This document shows positions 28,907-30,144 of a DNA stretch of 36,436 bases, in pieces. Every line of letters begins with the position of its first letter. Position 1 is the stretch's first letter. Source of the stretch: Candidatus Brocadiaceae bacterium. GTDB lineage: Bacteria > Planctomycetota > Brocadiia > SM23-32. A program made the position numbers and the translations under genes. Below the pieces are notes generated by a model, which was not told where the DNA came from, ran no database searches, and saw only the letters and a list, made by a program, of their open reading frames with translations. Location of the stretch: contig PUMJ01000281.1 in NCBI GenBank assembly GCA_003551305.1, positions 1 to 36,436 on the forward strand. Reading direction: 5' to 3'.

Positions 28907-28998
28907 TGCAGATGTAAACGGCGTGCCGACAGCGCTCATCGGGCTGCGGGCGGCCCTCAGGGCGTGCCCCGGCCCCCAGCGCCCCGGCAGCCGCTGGG

Positions 28999-29032
28999 GC
29001 CGCCCGGCGTGGTGTGCGATTATCTCAACACG
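28999..29032. repeat. 34-bp direct repeat, copy A (gccgcccggcgtggtgtgcgattatctcaacacg)
   Basis: 31/34 identical to 30111-30144. Confidence 0.8.
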
Positions 29033-29054
29033 GGTGTCCACATATCTCAACACG
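29021..29054 (-). promoter_or_regulatory. Candidate upstream activating sequence: two CGTGTTGAGATA half-sites 22 bp apart
   Basis: Minus-strand CGTGTTGAGATA at 29054-29043 and 29032-29021, each part of a GTGT-N12-ACAC dyad; 148 and 126 bp upstream of the -24/-12 element at 28906. Confidence 0.7.
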
Positions 29055-29120
29055 CCCCGCTACGGCCCCGTCCGGCCAGGGGCGACTCACCACTGCGCCT
29101 CCGGCAGGCACGTGACATCC

Positions 29121-29220
29121 TGTAATATGTTGCCTTACGGGCGCATATCGCAGATTGGGTTCGTTTCGCGAAAACGCTCCCGCACGCAACGCCTCCCGGG
29201 GACCGGGTCCGTCCTCCTCG
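29121..29220. repeat. 100-bp imperfect direct repeat, copy 1 (contains ATTGGGTTCGTTTCGCGAAAAC)
   Basis: Ungapped alignment with 29367-29466; I count 13 mismatches in 100 positions. Confidence 0.85.
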
Positions 29221-29366
29221 CCTCCACCCACGTCTGGCGGCGGTAAGCCCCGCCGGCGCCCCCCCCCGAACGAACAGGGAACGGCGGCCGGCACCGCGAG
29301 CAACGGCAGAGCGGCGGCAAGCCGCCGCACTCCAAAGGCCGCCCCACGGGCACATGCCTGACACCG

Positions 29367-29466
29367 TGCAATACGTTGCATTACGGGTGCATAGCGCACA
29401 TTGGGTTCGTTTCGCGAAAACACTTCCGCGCGCACCTCCTTCCGGGGACCGGGTCAGTCCTCCTCG
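29367..29466. repeat. 100-bp imperfect direct repeat, copy 2, overlapping the 3' end of the STGPKT ORF
   Basis: As above; includes the stop codon (29454-29456) and last codons of the minus-strand ORF. Confidence 0.85.
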
Positions 29467-29996
29467 GTGTGGATGGTCAAATCCCCGGTCAGCGGCGCGG
29501 CCACCTGCTCCCCGCCGCGCAGCCGCTGCAGCCGTTCTATCTCGTGCAGCAGCTTGATGAGCTGGTTCGTCAGAGTTTTGTCGTAGCGGGCGAACAGCTT
29601 CACGGTCATCTTGAACCTGTGGGCGTCGAACCAGCTCGCGTGCCGCCCGTCGCTCTTGGCCCGCTCGTATTCGTCCAGATCCAGCCCGTGCCTCTTCGGC
29701 TCCCAGGTGCGGATGTGATATTCGGCCTCCGCGCGGGCGCACCGCTGCAGGCGCAGGTAGGTGTGCGCGAGCTTCTCGAGGAGTATCTCCTCCAGCGGCC
29801 CGACCGGCTGGATCCACGCGGCCAGTTCCTCGTGGATGCCGGCCAGTTCCTCCTGGTCGTGTTCTGTGAGCGCGGAGGCGAAGATGCCGTGCTTGCGTGC
29901 ATTTAGCCGACTGACCGCCTTCCCGTCGTCCGTCTTCGGTCCGGTGCTCTTTTTCGCGTTCCTGCGATTCGCCTTTACTTGCCGCCTCGTCCCCAT
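29454..29996 (-). CDS. Small repeat-associated hypothetical protein ('STGPKT...NARKHG' N-terminal motif family)
   Basis: 'MGTRRQVKANRRNAKKSTGPKTDDGKAVSRLNARKHGIFASALTEHDQEELAGIHEEL' is a recognisable recurrent N-terminal motif of uncharacterised bacterial proteins. Confidence 0.75.
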   Translation of the reverse strand: MGTRRQVKANRRNAKKSTGPKTDDGKAVSRLNARKHGIFASALTEHDQEELAGIHEELAAWIQPVGPLEEILLEKLAHTYLRLQRCARAEAEYHIRTWEPKRHGLDLDEYERAKSDGRHASWFDAHRFKMTVKLFARYDKTLTNQLIKLLHEIERLQRLRGGEQVAAPLTGDLTIHTEED

Positions 29997-30048: not shown

Positions 30049-30110
30049 CACGATATGTGCTCGTGGCGCAAGGAAAAAACCGGCGAGATGTGGAGCCGCC
30101 CCCCGGCACG

Positions 30111-30144
30111 GCCGCCCGACGTGGTGTCCGGTTATCTCAACACG
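30111..30144. repeat. 34-bp direct repeat, copy B; carries an orphan CGTGTTGAGATA activator half-site (30133-30144, minus)
   Basis: 31/34 identity to 28999-29032; GTGT-N12-ACAC dyad conserved. Confidence 0.75.

Follow-up and report, generated by a model that had tools for sequence, protein, structure and literature searches.

A short DNA motif linked to the STGPKT gene family across bacterial phyla and dispersed between genes in a planctomycete genome

A short DNA motif lies beside genes of an uncharacterised protein family in several bacterial phyla, and in the genome of Candidatus Brocadiaceae bacterium (assembly GCA_003551305.1) it is also dispersed between genes. The family, which we call STGPKT after a conserved stretch of its N-terminal module, shares this module with the small terminase subunits of phages. 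Our window is one entire contig (PUMJ01000281.1, 36,436 nucleotides) of this 3.9-Mb draft genome; its relevant features are collected in Table 1. The explanation that we propose, and to which we would give an even chance, is that the gene encodes a terminase-like protein, predicted to bind DNA, whose cognate cis site lies next to the gene, and that the site has proliferated as REP-like repeats in some hosts.

Table 1. Features of the STGPKT locus in the window
Feature	Coordinates	Strand	Evidence
STGPKT-type gene, 180 aa, helical, uncharacterised family	29454..29996	-	ORF, coding score, homologues in several phyla
N-terminal module, residues 1-41, xxNAxKSTGPKTxxGKAxSxxNAxKHG	29874..29996	-	profile-profile match to phage small terminases
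Proximal 126-nt repeat copy, including the gene's last codons and stop	29341..29466	-	repeat search, direct comparison
Distal 126-nt repeat copy, 82% identical	29095..29220	-	repeat search, direct comparison
Core motif TTTCGCGAAACGAACCCAAT, ~35 nt past the stop codon	29400..29419	-	genome family of 57; cross-phylum at gene 3' end
Second core motif TTTCGCGAAACGAACCCAAT	29154..29173	-	pattern match in distal copy region
35-nt direct repeat, downstream side of the gene-plus-repeats segment	28998..29032	+	32/35 identical to 30110-30144
Partner 35-nt flanking direct repeat, upstream side of the gene	30110..30144	+	32/35 identical to 28998-29032
Third copy of the 22-nt flanking repeat, 19/22	29033..29054	+	word search

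The open reading frame at 29454-29996 is coding by score and has homologues at 27-60% protein identity in several phyla, which together argue that it is a real gene. The same follows from the coding score taken with an alignment in which members from organisms of the same family match the window gene over its full length, with many residues invariant. The nearest named relative belongs to a Planctomycetota bacterium, and the neighbouring genes encode a methyltransferase and a glycosyltransferase.

Downstream of this gene, the preliminary description had reported two ungapped direct repeats of about 100 bp, and direct comparison of 29121-29220 with 29367-29466 confirmed them, with 13 mismatches in 100 positions. 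Extended to 126 nt (29095-29220 versus 29341-29466), the copies still align without gaps, with 23 mismatches. The likeness ends sharply on the gene side, 5 of 40 positions being identical past the boundary. As had been described, the proximal copy takes in the stop and final codons of the ORF on the minus strand, and ATTGGGTTCGTTTCGCGAAAAC is present in both copies. What found no support is the idea that 'gene tail plus downstream sequence' forms the dispersed unit. A genome search with the proximal repeat returned the two local copies and then matches of 21-31 nt only, and beyond this locus only ∼20-35 bp are common. Uniqueness to the locus, which would have spoken against a repeat family, therefore applies to the 100-bp unit and not to the core of ∼20 bp, which is dispersed. 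The tandem pair may have arisen by local duplication of the gene tail together with the site. A search for inverted repeats found no pair framing the repeat unit. The 35-nt direct repeats frame a 1.1-kb segment that holds the gene and both repeats, and their 22-nt core, GGTGTCCGGTTATCTCAACACG, has three copies in the whole genome, all on this contig; these flanking repeats could be an insertion scar.

Conserved among the copies is the core GCGAAACGAAYCCAWT, preceded by a T-tract. The genome contains 57 copies, compared to none of a reversed-pattern control, and 53 of the 56 distinct copies are intergenic as judged by a simple codon-usage gene caller. The palindrome TTTCGCGAAA, which had been put forward as the conserved core, was ruled out, being present in 6 of 56 copies. 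Most copies have no family gene nearby. Only one other STGPKT-type gene exists in the genome (contig C77), and it carries the core ∼530 nt downstream, so that both such genes are followed by the core in the same orientation. With 57 genome copies, both STGPKT genes and the cross-phylum 3' ends described below, there is strong support for the earlier suggestion of dispersed repeats associated with this gene family. Around the second gene we also noted repeated units of the form AACCGCAGATGAACGCAGAT...GGCAAAGGCCGCTCTGTATG... (L038, G000:C77, positions 1030-2600).

Outside the core, the copies form two main groups, one bearing a promoter-like sequence (TTGACA-17-TAnnnT; ∼22 copies) and the other, about equal in number, bearing a GC-rich upstream hairpin. 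A promoter-like site (TTGACA-16/18-TAnnnT) lies 65-97 nt upstream of the core in 23 of 56 copies, compared to 50 of 2432 control windows (2%). Such an enrichment would be expected if the protein were a regulator that binds the motif as DNA or RNA and controls transcription of the neighbouring genes and its own. We regard this as decidedly unlikely, given that genes downstream of the copies are found in both orientations and that other phyla have the motif at the 3' end of the gene, in either orientation, as the sole copy in the genome. The same promoter-like sites, and a hairpin weakly conserved in the second class of copies, would also suit a motif that acts at the RNA level, as an RNA element or as a family of small RNAs to which the protein binds. 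This reading we set aside as having little chance of being correct: no Rfam covariance model matched over the motif, the window copies fold no better than shuffled sequences, compensatory change is almost absent with no strong covariation, and both orientations occur at gene ends.

We then consider the motif across phyla, in 80 loci retrieved from GTDB genomes with a five-sequence profile. These span the Planctomycetota, Patescibacteria, Acidobacteria, Chloroflexi, Elusimicrobia and others, and in about half of them the motif is at the 3' end of the gene. Allowing ≤1 mismatch, we counted 28 instances of the 13-nt core in the 30 kb that lie within 200 nt of the gene's stop codon and 10 in the 595 kb further away, as compared with 0 and 1 for a reversed control word. 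De novo counting of 10-mers around the stop codons put the motif at the top of the list, with 20 of 71 loci; the best unrelated word reached 6, and no word exceeded 5 in control stretches. With ≤2 mismatches allowed, 42 of 71 loci have the motif in the interval from −250 to +300 nt relative to the stop, versus an estimated ∼1 by chance; the loci share ancestry, and these counts are not independent. A second common word, TGCCGAAATCATTA, was seen downstream of six STGPKT genes (including L094, L099 and L121).

The placement of the motif varies between groups. Two relatives (G001, G006) have an identical or near-identical core 25-440 nt downstream of the gene, and a Gemmobacter plasmid gene has the exact core 25 nt past its stop. 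Most Patescibacteria have the motif on the strand opposite to the gene, starting at the stop codon (TAA then AATGGGTTCGTTTCGC); proteins whose reading frame runs into it have NGFVSQN as their C-terminus. The motif is co-oriented with the gene in several Planctomycetota and Acidobacteria, where its translation is NEPN, KRTQ or ETNPI. Short peptides of this kind, cited in the preliminary description, are indeed translations of the core in different frames. Because both strands and different frames are used, conservation at the protein level is excluded as the cause of the motif. One family of the class has a related single-copy gene that for the most part aligns outside the N-terminal module; this gene lacks the motif (1 of 59 loci, a set that includes repeats of the same genes).

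Protein identity between the window gene and 29 aligned relatives is only 27-60%. Unselected DNA would have diverged over such distances. These data leave hardly any room for hitchhiking, in which an unrelated repeat would have landed by chance beside an ancestral gene and been carried along. The gene is indeed horizontally mobile, but at this level of protein identity unselected DNA would not remain nearly identical over 13-20 bp, and the motif persists though its side, spacing and orientation vary.

Motif counts differ widely among hosts. The 20-nt motif (≤3 mismatches) is contained in 36 of 45 gene-bearing genomes. Several Patescibacteria genomes of 0.7-1.2 Mb have exactly one copy, at the stop of the gene (L087, L099, L100, L119); multi-copy genomes include G428 (100), G456 (24) and G452 (13). 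Many copies in G428 form direct pairs 107-109 bp apart; of four copies sampled in G456, at least two overlap additional STGPKT genes. Of 392 genomes sampled from the phylum, four contain the motif (≤2 mismatches), two of these with a strong match to the gene. In viral contigs the motif is rare (25 contigs), with a relative of the gene in one. Several further observations were made at individual loci. The paired-motif elements of G428 (L290-L303) are dispersed, and their partly conserved middle may form a short hairpin. One locus (L309, G447:C78:14500-15900) holds an array of at least five motifs (TTTTACGAAACGAAGCCAATT) at ∼38-bp spacing with variable spacers, giving it an iteron-like or CRISPR-like look. 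In two unrelated genomes, sub-threshold matches to the Acido-Lenti-1 RNA (RF01687) lie near the motif (L300 185-230, L056 1627-1671).

A precedent for such a distribution is the REP/RAYT system, in which a gene family is paired with a short cognate sequence, dispersed intergenically in some hosts and scarce in others (PMC3733652). The present system likewise joins a gene family to a short sequence dispersed between genes in some hosts, and its motif is, like REP, high-copy and extragenic in this genome. The STGPKT protein might then be a mobilising enzyme, or partner of one, that copies or moves motif-bearing miniature elements between genes. In favour of this are the gene's association with a dispersed cognate sequence, the host-specific repeats built on one core (promoter and hairpin forms here, pairs in G428, an array in G447) and the invariance of H36, R85 and Y138 in 30 homologues. 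However, library searches of the family found no transposase or nuclease domain, and many gene-bearing genomes have a single genome-wide copy of the motif and hence no second end for a mobile element. We consider this account unlikely. RAYT identity as such was ruled out: no search related the STGPKT protein to Y1/HUH transposases, and the only Y1_Tnp gene in the genome lies elsewhere, in motif-free surroundings. Unlike REP sequences, the core lacks a GTAG or CGTC tag and is seldom palindromic, and unlike REP/RAYT, the motif is near-identical across phyla and often stands alone beside its gene. There is also a resemblance to MITEs, as short, gene-free intergenic repeats tied to a gene-bearing relative, but the copies taken together have only ∼20-35 bp in common, and no inverted-repeat pair was found around the local unit.

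The protein itself offers a different connection. In Pfam, NCBIfam, PHROGs and PADLOC the window protein had no match that passed a family cut-off, nor did the PDB yield a significant one, and a Pfam search with 30 homologues gave no match beyond chance. Whole-protein matches to small terminase subunits (TerS) in the libraries were below threshold. The module STGPKTxEGKAxSxxNAxKHG is, however, common to viral proteins that PHROGs calls terminase small subunit, and a profile-profile alignment of the family with these phage small terminases gave 98.9% probability over 35 columns, the shared region being only ∼35 residues long. The viral TerS relatives lie before the large subunit gene (TerL). 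Structure prediction gave an entirely helical model of moderate confidence (pLDDT 78), which matched neither solved nor viral folds.

In Patescibacteria the STGPKT gene is part of an integrative element. The recurring gene order is a DUF5659 protein, a small protein, a TOPRIM primase-helicase, the STGPKT gene, the motif, a CxxC protein of ∼200 residues and a large serine recombinase, and two of these element loci adjoin tRNA genes. The CxxC protein has no Pfam match; it regularly adjoins the STGPKT gene in Patescibacteria (L094 5839-6498 and relatives) and also does so in a planctomycete (L121). On a cyanobacterial plasmid, the gene upstream of the STGPKT relative encodes a PriCT-2 protein, and a plasmid collection yielded six partial homologues; a phage collection yielded no homologue. 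We also considered the motif as the attachment site of the recombinase. This is unlikely, because in single-copy genomes the motif sits inside the element beside the gene and not at both element ends.

Some phage-inducible islands of the SaPI type encode a TerS for their own pac sites (PMC10690885). The STGPKT elements resemble these islands in having a primase-helicase and an integrase, and the STGPKT gene resembles terS in its N-terminal module and in having a site beside it. There are also differences. The C-terminal half is not common to the two groups, no large terminase was noted in the Patescibacteria elements, the window gene is not next to one, and phage TerS genes with the module are without the motif. 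For pac sites, dispersed copies in the host are not known. A role in packaging is weakened by the phage terminases that have the module and not the motif, by the lack of a noted TerL and by the rarity of the motif in viral contigs.

Taken together, the linkage between motif and gene, the element context and the shared module lead us to infer a terminase-like protein with a cognate site. The STGPKT product would be a sequence-specific DNA-binding protein, and the 16-20 bp motif TTTTGCGAAACGAACCCATT (here TTTCGCGAAACGAACCCAAT) would be the cis site that it binds; its retention next to the gene parallels the position of pac sites, within or adjacent to terS. In the integrative elements, where the CxxC protein may act as a zinc protein, gene and single site would travel together, and the pair probably marks element DNA for packaging, or else for replication or segregation. 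In this planctomycete, some Acidobacteria and others, the site would later have multiplied between genes in the manner of REP sequences, sometimes with a promoter or hairpin attached. It is conceivable, if somewhat doubtful, that the pair represents a new gene-plus-site class, in which a terminase-type module is joined to a near-universal 16-20 bp site, conserved in many phyla, that can seed host-specific families of intergenic repeats without a known transposase.

We found no paper on this motif. Outside transposon ends, pac or cos sites and replication origins, it is rare for the same short non-coding word to be kept beside a gene family across phyla, and this family, unnamed in the libraries searched, spans the Planctomycetota, Patescibacteria, Acidobacteria and more. 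One small protein and one 20-bp DNA make a concrete, testable pair. In the Patescibacteria, whose biology is poorly known, the family sits in integrative elements, and in planctomycete and acidobacterial genomes the motif may account for intergenic repeats that yield spurious short ORFs.
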